This document shows, in pieces, positions 40,439 through 51,279 of a stretch of DNA of 51,279 nucleotides. Under the pieces are notes generated by a model. It was not told the origin of the DNA. It worked only from the letters and a program-made list of their open reading frames with translations, and searched no databases. The translations under genes and the position numbers were made by a program. The first letter of the stretch is position 1. Each line of letters begins with the position of its first letter. Source of the stretch: a virus; IMG/VR virus record IMGVR_UViG_3300046520_000328, positions 1-51,279 of that record; one strand, 5' to 3'.

Positions 40439-40984
40439 TTATCCCAAAATGTCGTTCAGCAGTCCGTCGATACCTGCGGTTGTGCAAGTGTTCTCGTGTT
40501 GGGCAAATGCCAAGGTATGGCATGCCCTTCCGGTGGGGTTGGAAAATTTGACCGAGTTGTTTGCGTCAAAGACACCGGGCATGGAAGACCCATCGTCAAA
40601 GTGAGCCGTGCAGGCAAACCCTTCATAGCTCTCTTCTGCGGGAATCTTAAAGCCGATCCAGTTCCCGTGGATGGTCATAGGGGTAGGCGGAATGAACGGT
40701 GCCGGCGTGTGGGAATCACCGATAATCACCGTACCCGAGCCGCCGATCACGACATCGCCATGGGTGCCGACAGTGCCGACCAGTGCGGCGTTCTTGCCAT
40801 TGATGAAGACCGTTGCTGCCACGCTCGAGGCTAGCGCGCTGCCGCAGGTGCAGGTGTCACCTTTGGTCGCGGCTGCAAGTCCATCGAAAAACACATCAGG
40901 AGAACCGGAGGCGATGGCTTTGGGGCCGTGCCCAGGTATGGGACAACTGGTCGGGTCGGTAATACGTGCGGCTGGCTTCGCCAT
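40439..40984 (-). CDS. PAAR-domain spike protein with C-terminal extension
   Basis: A 181-residue protein. Residues 1-95 form a PAAR domain: AKPAARITDPTSCPIPGHGP, DTCTCGSALASSVAATVFIN, TVGTHGDVVIGGSGTVIIG. PAAR proteins cap the VgrG tip of the type VI secretion spike and carry effectors. The last 85 residues (IHGNWIGFKIPAEES and onward) are an extension with Cys pairs that may bind the downstream effector. GGGAG lies 6 nt before ATG 40984. Finding this on a prophage is unusual; a host type VI apparatus elsewhere would be required. Confidence 0.85.
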   Translation of the reverse strand: MAKPAARITDPTSCPIPGHGPKAIASGSPDVFFDGLAAATKGDTCTCGSALASSVAATVFINGKNAALVGTVGTHGDVVIGGSGTVIIGDSHTPAPFIPPTPMTIHGNWIGFKIPAEESYEGFACTAHFDDGSSMPGVFDANNSVKFSNPTGRACHTLAFAQHENTCTTAGIDGLLNDILG

Positions 40985-45106: not shown

Positions 45107-46906
45107 ATGGGCGATAAAATAATTCAGAATAAAATTCTTCTAGGTCTGTTGAGGGAGTTTGAGGAGGATTTTGGGATTTCTGATAATGACGAGGCGAAGT
45201 CATTCGAAAGGCTTGTTAATTATGTGGTTCTCTCAAAAATTGATCCTGAAGCTTTTTCTGAGCCTGCTGTTTTTGATCTTATAGATGTTGATAAGGCTAG
45301 TACCTTTGGTATCGATGCGTTTGCGCTTATCGTTAATGATAATTTAATTACAGATAAGAGTGAAATTGAGTTACATAGGAAATCTAAAAGGTTGGAGGTT
45401 CGCTTTGTATTTATTCAAACAAAGCGATCTACTTCGGTTGATTCAGGTGCTTTGCTGAAGTTTACTGCGGCTGTGCGAAATGTTTTTTCGAATAAGCCTT
45501 TGGTGCCATTATCGGACGAGTTGCAGGTAGCTAAAGAGTTAATAGATGAGGTTTTTAAAACCGAAAATGCGCGCTTGCTAAATAAAAAGCCTAGGTGCGA
45601 ATTGTATTATGCTACCTCGGGGAATGCTATTAAAGATGCGGCCTTATTGGGGGTGATGGAGTCCGAAGAGCAAAATATACTTGCTATGATTCCAGAGGTG
45701 CAAACGGTTTCAATAAAGCATGTTGATGCTGATTTTATTATTGATTCATTTAGTGAGATTGAAAATAGATATAGCGTCCTTATTAATTTTGAAAAAAATG
45801 TTCCTTGTGAGCGCATAGAGGATGTAGAGCAGGCATTCATTGGTTACCTTCCGGCTTCTGAATTTTTGAAGCTTATTACTGGGTCGGATGGCAATCTTCG
45901 GAAAAATATATTTTATGAGAATGTGCGAGATTTTCAGGGCTCAGAAAATGCAGTAAATACAGAGATTAGCGAAACACTTTCTGATGTTGCAATGCTGGAT
46001 AAGTTTATACTGCTTAATAATGGTGTTACAGTTGTGGCTCGTAGCTTTTCTAATATTCGTTCTATTCAGTATGAGATTAGCGATTATTATGTTGTTAATG
46101 GTTGTCAGACGAGCAACATGATTTATAGGTTTAGGGATCAGGTTCGTGATGACTTGAGCTTGAAGGTTCCGGTTAAATTTATTCATACTACCAGTAGCGA
46201 GTTGATCACCAAGTTGATTCGCTCGACAAATCGCCAGACTCCTGTGCCTGATGAGGCGTTTGTGTCTTTGGAAAAGTTTCATAAGAGGCTGCAAGAGTTT
46301 TACAGACTTTATTCTAGTGCATCGCCAGAAGCTTTATATTATGAGCGGCGCTCCAAAGAATTTTCAAGTGCTGAAGCGAAAATCGAGAAGCCTCGAATTA
46401 TAAATCTCCATGCTCAAATCAGATCTTTCACTTCTATCATGCTGAATGAACCACAATTGGTCATGAGTAATAACCCCGTTGCAATTCTTAGGGAGCATGG
46501 TGGGCGTCTTTTTGTTGAGGATCATAAACAGACTCCGTACTTTTTATCCTCGTTACTGTTATATCTTTTTCATCGCCTTTCTATTGAGGGTGCAGTGGAT
46601 GGTAAGTACGTGATTTCTAGATATTGGATTTGCTGGATTGCCAGGGTTCTGTGTTCTGGAAAACTTGATATGGGGCTGATGAATTCTCTCGGTGTTGAAA
46701 AGGACTCTGAGGCAATCGTGGCGCGTCTTGCATCGAAAGATTTTGTTTTGAGGCTGTTTAAGGACGCTATTGCTTTGTTTGACAAATCTAGGGGGGAGCA
46801 TTTTGCAAAGTATGGGCGTGTAAAAAATGCTGAATTAGTTAGGCTTAGAACGTTTCGAGACTCTATTAAAGAGAAGCTAGCTCGCACCAAAATGCAGAAG
46901 TACTAA
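45107..46906 (+). CDS. AIPR-family protein (abortive phage infection)
   Basis: A 599-residue protein. The central region shows the AIPR pattern: GYLPASEFLKLI near residue 247, LRKNIFYENVRDFQGSENAV near 265, FILLNNGVTVVARSF near 300, then YYVVNGCQTSNMIYRF near 325 and KLIRSTNRQTPV near 370. Members occur in abortive-infection and restriction-associated loci, and the biochemical activity is poorly defined. The N-terminal part (EVRFVFIQTKRSTSV) has a restriction-nuclease-like D/E...QxK pattern (Gln-Thr-Lys), so a nuclease activity is conceivable. AT-rich, single gene. Confidence 0.8.
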   Translation: MGDKIIQNKILLGLLREFEEDFGISDNDEAKSFERLVNYVVLSKIDPEAFSEPAVFDLIDVDKASTFGIDAFALIVNDNLITDKSEIELHRKSKRLEVRFVFIQTKRSTSVDSGALLKFTAAVRNVFSNKPLVPLSDELQVAKELIDEVFKTENARLLNKKPRCELYYATSGNAIKDAALLGVMESEEQNILAMIPEVQTVSIKHVDADFIIDSFSEIENRYSVLINFEKNVPCERIEDVEQAFIGYLPASEFLKLITGSDGNLRKNIFYENVRDFQGSENAVNTEISETLSDVAMLDKFILLNNGVTVVARSFSNIRSIQYEISDYYVVNGCQTSNMIYRFRDQVRDDLSLKVPVKFIHTTSSELITKLIRSTNRQTPVPDEAFVSLEKFHKRLQEFYRLYSSASPEALYYERRSKEFSSAEAKIEKPRIINLHAQIRSFTSIMLNEPQLVMSNNPVAILREHGGRLFVEDHKQTPYFLSSLLLYLFHRLSIEGAVDGKYVISRYWICWIARVLCSGKLDMGLMNSLGVEKDSEAIVARLASKDFVLRLFKDAIALFDKSRGEHFAKYGRVKNAELVRLRTFRDSIKEKLARTKMQKY

Positions 46907-47141: not shown

Positions 47142-48290
47142 TTACTTTTTCTTTTCGTCTTCCGCGAGAACTTCAGAAGCCTTATCAACAAGAGCTTTAG
47201 CGATGTCAGTTTTCTTTGCTGCTGTAGCTGTCAGAAGATCAGCGGCAGGCATTGAATCAGTCCCTTCTAATATTTTTACTTGAAGAGACTGAAATGCCTT
47301 TTCTCGGGGCGACTCAAATGATGTGTATCTGGTTGAGAGGATTTTGCTTGTGTAGTTATTTCCACTTTTCATTTTCTCTAGGGTTATCACCGGGTTCCTA
47401 TCGCCAAGTGTAAGTCCGATGGTGATTGTTCTTTCGAGCCCTCCAAAGGTGTGTTTGTGAAGAGGGTTTGGGTAGAATATGTTTTTAGGTACAATGAAGT
47501 ATTGAACTACATCTTTTTTTCCGACTGGTATTATTTGAATCTCTGTGACGAATGATGGGTCTTCAGATAAGCCCTGAAAAGGGCTAGGGGATGCATCTCT
47601 TTTCAGTCCTGGGATGACAAGCTCATAATTATCAAGCGGCCCATCTTTTGCTCCAGTTGTATTTTTATATTTGCTCTTTATTTCATTCCCTTTTCCGGGG
47701 TTTGAATATTCTCCAGTAATAGCAAGGATGCATAAGCTTTCTTTGGGGTCTATGTTGACTGTAGGTGTACTTTTGTCATATTCAGCGCCAGCCGCCTCTT
47801 TAACCTTGTTTTTTGCTGCAACAAGGCCGGCGTCATCATCTTTCACTCCAGAATGATTAGCCTTGTAAGTGCGCTCGGCATTAATAACTGCGTTTTCAAT
47901 GTCACGGTCTCTTGTCACCGTATAATTATTCAATACATCTAGACTAGGCCAAAATGGGGTGTCTGCCAACGATAGCAAAGAGGATCCTGACGAGCTAACC
48001 TCTGCATTGAGATATGCAGCTTCATTCTTTATGGCCTCTTCAGCTTTGTCTGCAATAAAGTTGATGATGAAACTGGCTACGGCTATTTCAACCCCTGATT
48101 CATCATCTTTGTTTGTATAGTTACATATTGCACTTTTCTTAACGAATACTCTTGTTTCAAAAAGAGATGGGCTGCTGGCTTTCATCGCATCATAATCAGC
48201 TGGTCCGGTTCTTATGGTACCTATTTTGGGTGTAAAACATCCAGAAACAGATAGCGCAAAAAACATTGCAATCATGTATTTTTTTTTCAT
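47142..48290 (-). CDS. Unknown lipoprotein, partner of the serine protease
   Basis: A 382-residue protein. The signal peptide and lipobox (MIAMFFALSVSGCFTP, Cys at residue 18) predict anchoring in the outer or inner membrane. The mature part has a hydrophobic stretch (VEIAVASFIINFIADKAEEA), a central polar region and a beta-rich C-terminal half (FVTEIQIIPVGKKDVVQYFI, RTITIGLTLGDRNPVITLEK), ending in a Lys/Glu-rich helix. No family recognised. Its ATG overlaps the protease stop (ATGA), so the two are made together and probably act together in the periplasm. Confidence 0.7.
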   Translation of the reverse strand: MKKKYMIAMFFALSVSGCFTPKIGTIRTGPADYDAMKASSPSLFETRVFVKKSAICNYTNKDDESGVEIAVASFIINFIADKAEEAIKNEAAYLNAEVSSSGSSLLSLADTPFWPSLDVLNNYTVTRDRDIENAVINAERTYKANHSGVKDDDAGLVAAKNKVKEAAGAEYDKSTPTVNIDPKESLCILAITGEYSNPGKGNEIKSKYKNTTGAKDGPLDNYELVIPGLKRDASPSPFQGLSEDPSFVTEIQIIPVGKKDVVQYFIVPKNIFYPNPLHKHTFGGLERTITIGLTLGDRNPVITLEKMKSGNNYTSKILSTRYTSFESPREKAFQSLQVKILEGTDSMPAADLLTATAAKKTDIAKALVDKASEVLAEDEKKK

Positions 48291-49423
48291 ATTCCTTCTC
48301 CTTTTATCTTGCTGGCATAGTTAACGTTTAAATCAACTCCGCACTTTCCATCAGTCATGACCGTTTCTTCATTAGCATTTGTTCCGGAGTGAATGCCAGC
48401 TATTTCAAATCTTCCTTTGGATGTACTCTTTTGATAAAGAGGTGATCCAGAGAATCCTTTCAGCGTGCTACATCCATGGATTAAACATCCGTTACTCGAA
48501 TCATTCATTATCATGCAAAAGGAATTGCCAACTGGCGCCCATAATAGTTGCTTTTGATATTCAGAAAAATCTCTCAGTGACATTAAATCCTGCCCCTCAG
48601 GTAGTCCTGTTATTATTAAGTGTTGCATCCAATAATTAATGCCGAGTAGTTCGCGTTTTTTTGGGATGTCGTTGTTGGAAAGTTTCGGTGTTGTTGCCTT
48701 TATGGTTGCTATGTCACAGTTTTTTGATTTGCACCAGCTAACTGAGTTTGCCTTTAATGGTATAAACAATCCGTCAACCAATATCGACATTTTTAGTTGG
48801 ATGTAGTCAATCGGAACACAATGGGCCGCCGTTATCCATAAACCATCACCTATTACTGAAACGACGCACTTGTGTCTATATTTTCTATCTGCCAATGATG
48901 ATATGAAGTTAAAGGATGGTATGTATTGTATGTCTTCATATTGCGCTTGGCTCGTATTAAAGAAACACTTCCTTATTTCTTCTTGGTTTCTCCCCCCCAT
49001 TTCTTTTTGTTCCCCTTTGCAGGGCCTTGCAGTCGAGACGATCGCTTCGATTTGAGCTTGGCTAAGCTTGTCTTCAAGAAGTTTGTTTGCTGCGGCCTCT
49101 CCGTCAGTCACATCCATTGTCATTTCGGTATTGCTTCCATTGCGAAGCTTTCTAACTTGAAATGAATTATTTATTTTTTCCTTGACTTTGCTCTCACTAC
49201 GCAGTGGTGGAGTGTCAAGAATATTTTGTTTGTATGAGTCTTCACTATGGAGTTTGTTAAATTTTTCAAAGTTGGTAATGCTTTCGCTAGGCGCCATGTC
49301 TTTCTGCATTAATTCCAATTCGCTCTGATCACGCTCTTCAAAATTCACTGCCGCATGAAGGGAATGCACGGATACGAAAAATACGAACAAAAAAACTATT
49401 GGCTTTAGTGCTGATTTCTTCAT
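48287..49423 (-). CDS. Secreted trypsin-like serine protease
   Basis: A 378-residue protein. A signal peptide (KKSALKPIVFLFVFFVSVHS, then LHA) is followed by about 150 polar residues, then an S1 protease domain: His in LWITAAHCVPIDY (about residue 200), Asp in KNCDIATIKA (about 237), Ser in LKGFSGSPLYQK (about 325). The triad is complete, so it is likely active in the periplasm or outside. The polar N-terminal region may be a propeptide. Start 49423 is preferred; ATG 49435 is an alternative. Confidence 0.82.
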   Translation of the reverse strand: MKKSALKPIVFLFVFFVSVHSLHAAVNFEERDQSELELMQKDMAPSESITNFEKFNKLHSEDSYKQNILDTPPLRSESKVKEKINNSFQVRKLRNGSNTEMTMDVTDGEAAANKLLEDKLSQAQIEAIVSTARPCKGEQKEMGGRNQEEIRKCFFNTSQAQYEDIQYIPSFNFISSLADRKYRHKCVVSVIGDGLWITAAHCVPIDYIQLKMSILVDGLFIPLKANSVSWCKSKNCDIATIKATTPKLSNNDIPKKRELLGINYWMQHLIITGLPEGQDLMSLRDFSEYQKQLLWAPVGNSFCMIMNDSSNGCLIHGCSTLKGFSGSPLYQKSTSKGRFEIAGIHSGTNANEETVMTDGKCGVDLNVNYASKIKGEGI

Positions 49424-50176: not shown

Positions 50177-50236
50177 GTCAAAGACACAGGGAGAGGTTGG
50201 TCAATCCGGCCGGGGCTTCTGGGAATTACTGCGCCT

Positions 50237-50248
50237 AATCCATCATCG
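50237..50248. other. Third att-like core
   Basis: AATCCATCATCG matches 12 of the 15 core bases. On the minus strand ATGATGGATTAG follows CGCTATTCG, a decayed form of the DusA RRFSVAPMMDW coding region with nine bases missing. It is probably an old attR or a degenerate remnant of the ancestral dusA start. Confidence 0.55.
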
Positions 50249-50357
50249 AATAGCGACAATGTCATTCTGTTTATGGCATCACGCCAATGTCGGAGATTTC
50301 CTGCAACCCGTGTCGCCATCGCCCACCTTGCACTCCTCCAACCACCCAGATAACCTT

Positions 50358-50387
50358 CCCTTGTCGCTGCAAAATCAGCGACAAGGG
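50358..50387 (+). other. Strong hairpin in the leader of the DUF6124-like gene
   Basis: A 12-bp perfect stem CCCTTGTCGCTG/CAGCGACAAGGG with a 6-nt loop. It has no T-tract, so it is not a classical terminator. It directly precedes the first target-like site (50388). Confidence 0.75.
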
Positions 50388-50451
50388 TGTGGAAGCCCTT
50401 CACAAGATCTAGGCGCACAAGCGCCACCAAAATTTCAGCGGGCGCTTTTTT
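50388..50451 (+). promoter_or_regulatory. Upstream target sites overlapping a possible attenuator
   Basis: TGTGGAAG (50388-50395) and GATCTAGG (50406-50413) are complementary to two segments of the RNA at 50472-50547. The second overlaps a GGCGC/GCGCC hairpin (50412-50425). That hairpin excludes an AAGCGCC/GGCGCTT terminator followed by T6 (50419-50451). RNA pairing to GATCTAGG could free the terminator stem. This recalls seqA of the P4 immunity system. Confidence 0.5.
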
Positions 50452-50471
50452 CGTGTCTGCTGTTAAATTAT

Positions 50472-50547
50472 GGCGGCTGTGCGCGGGGCACTTTCGGGTG
50501 CGCCGGGTTCCTAGATCCCCGGTCTTCCACACCTGCGTACAGCTGCC
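50472..50547 (+). ncRNA. C4/P4-CI-type antisense RNA
   Basis: A closed three-way junction. The outer stem 50472-50487 with 50532-50547 is 16 bp (three G-U pairs). Hairpin GCAC/GTGC lies at 50488-50501. Hairpin CCGGG/CCCGG lies at 50503-50522 with loop TTCCTAGATC. The loop plus its closing G (GTTCCTAGA, 50507-50515) is complementary to TCTAGGAAC at the ribosome site of the downstream gene. CTTCCACA (50524-50531) is complementary to TGTGGAAG at 50556. This two-part pairing is the C4 antisense scheme of phages P1/P7. I recall similar elements before small genes in Pseudomonas. Probably cleaved from the leader transcript. Confidence 0.75.
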
Positions 50548-50555
50548 ACCCATCA

Positions 50556-50598
50556 TGTGGAAGTGATGCTGGCAGTTCCTTAATTTAATTCTAGGAAC
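50556..50598 (+). promoter_or_regulatory. Downstream target sites of the antisense RNA
   Basis: TGTGGAAG (50556-50563) is displayed as the exact loop of a CATCA/TGATG hairpin (50551-50568). TCTAGGAAC (50590-50598) contains the AGGAA ribosome site, 7 nt before the ATG. Pairing of the RNA with both would block translation of the DUF6124-like gene. Confidence 0.65.
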
Positions 50599-50605
50599 AA
50601 AAGCA

Positions 50606-50977
50606 ATGAAGAAAATCACTCCAAATCCCCCAGAAACCTCAACCGTTTCCGACCCTCTCGATGAGCTCTCCAAAGCCACTCAACGCGCTGTCAGCAAACG
50701 CCTTCGTAACCCAAACCACGCCGACCCGATCAGCCACGTTTTCACCATCCTCCCCAACGTCGATACAGAAACCCTGTTAAGCCACGCCTGCGAAACTCTC
50801 GCGTCCCTAAACGTCCTAACCACCGACCTGGCCTGCGAACTCGAAGGTTCACACCGCAGTCTCGCGCTGTCGATTCAGCAATTAGCAGTAGTCGGTGAGT
50901 TATTGGTAAACCGAGCCCTGGATAATCTTGACCCGCCCGACGGTGAGTCCGAGATTCCATCCACCAGCCAAGCCTAA
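50606..50977 (+). CDS. DUF6124-like Pseudomonas protein
   Basis: A 123-residue protein (KKITPNPPETSTVSDPLDEL, then ILPNVDTETLLSHACETLAS and AVVGELLVNRALDNL). The pattern matches a small helical family common in Pseudomonas (DUF6124, from memory) with no known function. The N-terminal 45 residues are polar; the rest is two or three helices. Expression is likely controlled by the antisense RNA in its leader. The next gene starts 35 bp later on the same strand. Confidence 0.7.
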   Translation: MKKITPNPPETSTVSDPLDELSKATQRAVSKRLRNPNHADPISHVFTILPNVDTETLLSHACETLASLNVLTTDLACELEGSHRSLALSIQQLAVVGELLVNRALDNLDPPDGESEIPSTSQA

Positions 50978-51012: not shown

Positions 51013-51279
51013 ATGGCTCGATATATGCCAATCACCGGAATCGATTGCACAATTCCGTCGCTGTTGATCGATACCGAAGCACCCGTCGACGTGTTGCACG
51101 ACACGGCCGCATACCGCATCCGCGCCGTGACGCAACTGCTGGAATCCCTTTCTCTGGACGAAGGCATTGGTCGTGATGCATTGCTGCTACGGGACTTCGC
51201 GCGGGTGTTGGCGATTCCGCTGCGCGATGGCTGCGATTTACTGGATGTGATGGGGCGGCGCTTGCAAGCGCAGGTGTAG
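51013..51279 (+). CDS. Unknown 88-residue protein
   Basis: A small helical protein (ARYMPITGIDCTIPSLLIDT, then YRIRAVTQLLESLSLDEGIG and DFARVLAIPLRDGCDLLDVM). No firm family. GGAGG lies 7 nt before the ATG. It ends on the last base of the window and is probably co-transcribed with the DUF6124-like gene. Such pairs recur in Pseudomonas, but a function cannot be given. Confidence 0.6.
   Translation: MARYMPITGIDCTIPSLLIDTEAPVDVLHDTAAYRIRAVTQLLESLSLDEGIGRDALLLRDFARVLAIPLRDGCDLLDVMGRRLQAQV

Follow-up and report, generated by a model that had tools for sequence, protein, structure and literature searches.

A P1-type C4 antisense RNA module ahead of a DUF6124 gene and its multi-copy, mostly private use in Pseudomonas

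The RNA located ahead of a DUF6124 gene at the right end of the window, i.e. the whole 51,279-nucleotide stretch of IMG/VR record IMGVR_UViG_3300046520_000328, is a C4 antisense RNA, the already known gene switch of the phage P1 type. We propose, with a probability of about 0.8, that it belongs to a P1-type C4 module which would block translation at its downstream targets a2 and b2 and, in leaders like that of the window, terminate transcription at its upstream targets a1 and b1, the copies of this module being mostly private. The C4 layout is the known part of this description; the multi-copy, mostly private use of C4 in Pseudomonas before DUF6124 and DUF3077 genes is the unexpected part.

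Searching Rfam with cmscan, positions 50466-50553 (+ strand) were matched by the full C4 antisense RNA model (RF01695) with 80.6 bits and an E-value of 2.7e-14, for a cut-off of 45 bits. The upstream target element at 50350-50403 was matched by the c4-a1b1 model (RF03163) just above its cut-off (47.2 vs 46.7 bits). A sequence-only reading of the window had located a structured RNA at 50472-50547 and recommended a covariance search with the Rfam C4 model; its coordinates proved essentially correct and the search returned the full-length match given above. Among 38 homologues, compensatory changes were found at 13 of the 25 predicted pairs of the C4 fold. The processed C4 RNA would be expected at about 50472-50550, its ends being placed from those of P1 c4.

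Two segments of the RNA, a' (CTTCCACACC, 50524-50533) and the b' loop (GTTCCTAGATC, 50507-50517), are complementary to sites located on both sides of it, all on the + strand. Read from the sequence, a' pairs at 10 of 10 positions with a1 (GGTGTGGAAG, 50386-50395), and the part of b' spanning 50510-50517 (CCTAGATC) at 8 of 8 positions with b1 (GATCTAGG, 50406-50413), a site overlapping the 5' arm of a predicted anti-terminator. On the downstream side, a' pairs over 8 bp with a2 (TGTGGAAG, 50556-50563), in the loop of a hairpin ATCA...TGAT, and the part of b' spanning 50507-50515 (GTTCCTAGA) over 9 bp with b2 (TCTAGGAAC, 50590-50598). The b2 site contains a Shine-Dalgarno-like AGGA ahead of the ATG at 50606 and covers the ribosome site of the DUF6124 gene. 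As in a C4 RNA, a' and b' are complementary to a2 and b2, b2 lying over the ribosome site of the gene that follows, and a1 and b1 are present upstream, as they are in P1. The sequence-only reading had described two RNA segments pairing with two downstream sites, one being this ribosome site, and with two upstream sites in the same order; both descriptions hold, and so does the general proposal of an immunity-type antisense RNA that pairs through two segments and is flanked by its targets. In the stretch 50575-50598, a GTTCCT is complementary to the AGGAAC of b2, and this local hairpin may provide a further closure of the ribosome site. AGCTCC/GGAGCT pairs resembling it are seen at many other loci.

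In the annotation of the P1 record (AF234172), a1 is located at 48255-48261, b1 at 48269-48276, c4 at 48343-48419, a2 at 48423-48429, b2 at 48452-48459 and icd from 48470, followed by ant. The window shares with the C4 of P1 and P7 the fold, the a' and b' segments, the ordering a1/b1-C4-a2/b2 with nearly the same spacing, and the covered ribosome site of the first gene. The P1 a1 and a2 sites both read TTGACAG, which is the a-site of one Pseudomonas class. P1 differs in the controlled genes, icd-ant, whereas the first gene behind the window C4 encodes DUF6124, so that the window does not carry a P1 immI locus, in which C4 lies ahead of an icd-ant antirepressor operon. It also differs in its single C4 copy, to be compared with up to about 40 copies per Pseudomonas genome. 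Control of icd-ant characterises the P1 operon and does not define the C4 RNA family.

The targets flanking the RNA on both sides had been interpreted in the sequence-only reading as a hybrid of the P4 and P1 plans. We rejected this interpretation: since the P1 record annotates the same order and Rfam already holds c4-a1b1, the layout of the window is the ordinary C4 layout. The c4 antisense RNA and c4-a1b1 are both listed as motifs in Weinberg 2010 (PMC2864571). The CI RNA of satellite P4 has complementary sites, seqA and seqC, on both sides and acts by premature termination (PMC4825925). The window likewise has an antisense RNA flanked by sites complementary to it, but differs by its two pairing segments, its C4 match and its DUF6124 target. 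In P4, a single seqB pairs with both seqA and seqC, ahead of the P4 replication genes. Neither the single seqB nor the position before replication genes is found for the window RNA, which thus does not belong to the P4 CI immunity RNAs.

Another related arrangement, studied experimentally, is that of Gifsy-1, in which IsrK is reported as a leader RNA that stops at a Rho-independent terminator and is followed by the processed RNA STnc1160 and an antirepressor (PMC4825925). As predicted for the window, IsrK-STnc1160-orf45-anrP comprises a leader with a terminator, a processed RNA complementary to the leader and a small ORF (PMC4825925); an antirepressor follows the small ORF in Gifsy-1, whereas none lies directly downstream in the window. 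The isrK Rfam model remained below its cut-off in the window. In two Pseudomonas phage or satellite records, the isrK and c4-a1b1 models overlap on the same leader (L162, 2158-2257; L164, 2447-2542), which suggests that, in a C4-type operon, isrK would be the a1b1 leader in its terminated form.

The pairing was further assessed by comparing loci, as the sequence-only reading had recommended for Pseudomonas. Homologues of the DUF6124 gene were taken from viral contigs and bacterial genomes, most of them having the same leader, and 85 C4 loci that differ in their loop segments were retained, with 83 different b' and 27 different a'. Each loop was scored against its own upstream and downstream regions and against those of all other loci. 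The mean own-locus pairing scores were 18.3 upstream and 20.5 downstream for b', for maxima of 15.2 and 15.6 over 10,000 permutations of the 85 loci, and 19.3 and 17.6 for a', for maxima of 14.9 and 14.2, a comparison that does not amount to a strict probability because the loci are mutually related. A stricter check was provided by close paralogue pairs from one chromosome, in which swapping loops and targets lowered the pairing in 18 out of 18 pairs (from 75.3 to 57.1, Wilcoxon p 0.0002), these pairs sharing members and hence not being all independent. The expected co-variation is thus observed, and all four target sites vary together with the C4 loops in the sequences compared.

The leader of the window begins near 50358. 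A probable promoter, identified by eye, abuts the leader hairpin at 50328-50356 (+; TTGCAC, 17 nt, TAACCT), and a TANNNT-like box just ahead of the 5' hairpin is also present in leaders at other loci. A consensus promoter scan of the window leader stretch called no promoter. A separate promoter for C4 was considered and rejected, as the leader alignment exhibits nothing conserved between classes immediately 5' of C4; a1, b1 and C4 would share one transcript. At the transcript start, the 5' hairpin CTTGTCGCTG/CAGCGACAAG (50360-50385, +), obtained by folding, lies within the c4-a1b1 match and is conserved in most aligned leaders. It is followed by a predicted anti-terminator hairpin, GGCGC(ACAA)GCGCC (50412-50425, +), with a probability of 0.99 in the nascent leader, and by a predicted intrinsic terminator, AGCGCC...GGCGCT TTTTT (50420-50451, +), the two being mutually exclusive. 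A generic terminator scan called none in the window stretch; the loop allowed by the scan is shorter than that of this terminator.

Terminator-like hairpins were enriched between b1 and C4, with 25 out of 86 compared to a mean of 6.1 and a maximum of 10 in shuffled sequences. Among 128 distinct leaders, 51 exhibit a terminator-like hairpin, that of P1 included, and blocking b1 increased their mean predicted terminator probability from 0.33 to 0.89, with a rise in 44 leaders and a decrease in 2. In the P1 leader, the predicted probability went from 0.53 to 0.93. In the window it went from 0.79 to 1.0, a smaller effect than in most leaders because the terminator already predominates when b1 is unblocked. 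As a control, an 8-nt block was placed in the 50 leaders other than P1: at b1 the change was +0.53, and at 4-40 nt further 5' it was comprised between -0.05 and +0.18. All these attenuation figures are thermodynamic predictions. Since about 60% of the leaders have no clear terminator, attenuation cannot be universal.

We propose that a single promoter ahead of 50360 would yield a leader RNA containing a1, b1, C4, a2 and b2, followed by the DUF6124 message. C4 would be cut out of this leader as an RNA of about 77-80 nt, as in P1, and its a' and b' segments would pair with a2 and b2 of transcripts of the same kind, covering the ribosome site, so that DUF6124 would remain untranslated. In leaders such as that of the window, binding of C4 at a1 and b1 would disrupt the anti-terminator and the intrinsic terminator would form upstream of C4; the operon, including C4, would thus be shut off by its own product in a negative feedback. 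The module would have been copied many times in Pseudomonas before small genes, with a loop/target match mostly private to each copy, so that the copies would not silence one another.

An integrase gene and genes for terminase, portal and tail proteins occupy the left and middle of the window, and the C4 unit lies at the right end. The sequence shared with other copies begins near 50230-50288 and, in most of them, stops near 50935-50945, the DNA beyond these limits being different; the C4 unit is thus a discrete element, about 0.7 kb long. Among close relatives, the similarity extends through the second small gene. Elsewhere in the window, a two-gene pair at 35835-37579 matches PADLOC HEC-01A and HEC-01B (E 2.7e-153 and 3.4e-75), and the Pseudomonas sRNA P10 (RF01668) is found at 40893-40964 on the minus strand (52.7 bits). 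An AIPR-domain protein encoded at 45107-46906, adjoining the prophage end, has AbiU as its top PADLOC match and is likely the product of an abortive-infection gene.

The first gene behind C4 (50606-50977, +, 123 aa) matches DUF6124 (PF19619) with 97.3 bits. Its product is predicted to form a helical hairpin (residues 54-78/81-106), and the AlphaFold model exhibits a confident two-helix hairpin at 54-106 with a low-confidence N-terminus (mean pLDDT 75.9). No relative of solved structure was detected by sequence, and a fold search returned generic helical-hairpin matches only, none with E below 0.001; we therefore claim no function for DUF6124. The second small gene (51013-51279, +, 88 aa) is an ORF with no Pfam match; by eye, look-alikes of its product sit directly behind their own C4 in L097, L100, L132 and L134. 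A Pfam search was performed on 37 proteins, namely 35 encoded downstream of C4, in the complete chromosome of P. fluorescens FW300-N2E3 (hereafter G005) and in other genomes, plus those of the two window genes. It yielded 21 DUF6124, 9 DUF3077 and 2 Bro-N proteins, the latter matching phage antirepressor families. By position, 17 of the 27 C4s of G005 are directly ahead of a DUF6124 gene. Behind the remaining ones are found DUF3077, a gene of the Bro-N (antirepressor-like) type, genes resembling the second one of the window, and further small genes without a name. Among the searchable papers, we found none on DUF6124 and one passing mention of DUF3077.

Behind most of the distinct C4s of viral contigs lies a conserved ORF of about 52 codons, at the place taken by icd in P1. 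In phages and satellites (e.g. L181, L188, L206, L218), this ORF, directly behind C4, has the motif M.ALIPSKIRA.AHR.MALAALHA.SSL..R..RYN. At the G005 locus L127, the same kind of short ORF is followed by overlapping small genes, the last being DUF3077-like by eye. No similarity to P1 Icd was visible in the proteins of about 52 codons.

Icd, encoded by the first gene behind the P1 C4, is annotated as an inhibitor of cell division, and one may ask if the small proteins would damage the cell when their production goes unchecked, each C4 being the RNA antitoxin of its copy, in the manner of a type I toxin-antitoxin. The private character of the matched loops, for which this would give a reason, and the many copies per genome would fit such a role. 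We nevertheless regard it as rather unlikely. Searches of Pfam, NCBIfam and PADLOC gave no toxin family match, the protein downstream of C4 having no match at all in the latter two; no sign of harmful DUF6124 or DUF3077 was encountered here, and the predicted DUF6124 protein is a soluble-looking helical hairpin. Moreover, DUF6124 genes persist without C4 at L139, L142, L144 and L073, which would be intolerable for a toxin placed behind an RNA antitoxin. At these four G005 loci the 5' hairpin and an a-type site are kept directly before the gene, L142 retaining TGTGGAAG and ATCTAGG as in the window; they look like C4-deletion derivatives and are possibly targets in trans. An array of repeated DUF6124 C-terminal fragments behind one intact gene is also observed in this chromosome (G005:C1:4297503-4302425).

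The P1-type module is present in many copies. In seven Pseudomonas genomes, picked for having DUF6124 loci, 6, 29, 25, 43, 27, 36 and 20 C4 matches were counted, for 8, 23, 19, 34, 31, 29 and 15 DUF6124 matches, respectively (r = 0.92). In 150 genomes of Pseudomonas species, sampled evenly across the genus, C4 was present in 139 (138 above cut-off); the counts per genome are lower bounds, with at least 27 C4s in many genomes and only one to three in some. Among 184 genomes of other Gammaproteobacteria, 6 had C4, in one to three copies each, and none had DUF6124. In this sample, DUF6124 is therefore almost confined to Pseudomonas, a genus in which C4 is strongly expanded. No description of this expansion was found among the searchable papers, which covered a minority of subscription journals.

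The 27 C4s of G005 are dispersed along the chromosome, in agreement with the sequence-only reading of a phage-type circuit before a small host-type gene, such small genes being present at many host chromosomal sites. The units could also be decaying prophage relics, left by satellites and devoid of present function, as the position of the module at the end of a prophage-bearing contig and the loss of C4 from some copies might indicate. Against this are the dispersal of 27 copies around one chromosome, the four target sites still matched to the loops, and the conservation of the protein through synonymous change described below, and we consider the relic explanation very improbable.

In G005, the summed pairing scores were highest for the own locus in 25 of the 27 C4s, the other 2 matching the target of another locus better than their own. 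For paralogue pairs with a gene identity above 80%, the mean identity was 0.88 in the gene, 0.80 in the promoter region and 0.79 in the C4 stems, and fell to 0.53 in the leader, 0.62 in the loops and 0.59 in the a2-b2 region. For instance, the two members of the L155 tandem pair (G005 1176000-1181500) are 0.97 and 0.98 identical in promoter and gene but 0.48 and 0.54 in leader and loops. The proteins of this pair are identical, 6 of 6 nucleotide differences being synonymous; the same is true of L158/L159, with 21 of 21 synonymous differences and a loop identity of 0.48. Yet in both pairs the RNA loops, and in L155 the targets also, are unrelated between copies and matched within each. In a third pair, 28 of 31 differences are synonymous. 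Such synonymous differences point to a protein maintained by purifying selection behind an RNA key and locks that differ between copies. This selection and the dispersed copies make a domesticated phage circuit plausible from the sequences. The divergence of key and locks may come from selection for insulation or from recombination homogenising the ends of the unit, and both may act.

Chromosomal C4s could also act in trans on incoming phages and satellites having the same a and b sites, thereby forming a host immunity repertoire. Identical a' and b' are indeed found in some C4s from bacterial genomes and in C4s from phages or satellites (e.g. L113/L168, L121/L165, L090/L170), and c4 heteroimmunity between P1 and P7 is described (PMC12197685). 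The bacterial loci concerned may, however, be integrated elements in their own right, a viral partner is lacking in our sample for the majority of chromosomal loops, and the conserved cis targets and coding gene favour control of the local gene; we find such an immunity repertoire quite unlikely.

Taking the P1-type module with mostly private copies as the preferred reading, a broader proposal, to which we give even odds, is that Pseudomonas has made of the C4 immunity circuit a set of 20-40 antisense switches spread over the genome and insulated from one another, with the same protein behind several private regulators. Promoters and proteins of paralogues would be kept nearly identical by recombination or selection, the RNA key and its four locks would diverge together, and C4 would act, already in P1, by triggered termination plus translational block. 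With paralogous antisense RNAs present by the dozen per chromosome, specificity, cross-talk and the birth of new specificities become directly measurable. DUF6124 and DUF3077 gain a first regulatory context, and attenuation at a1/b1 constitutes a testable prediction for the classical P1 system.
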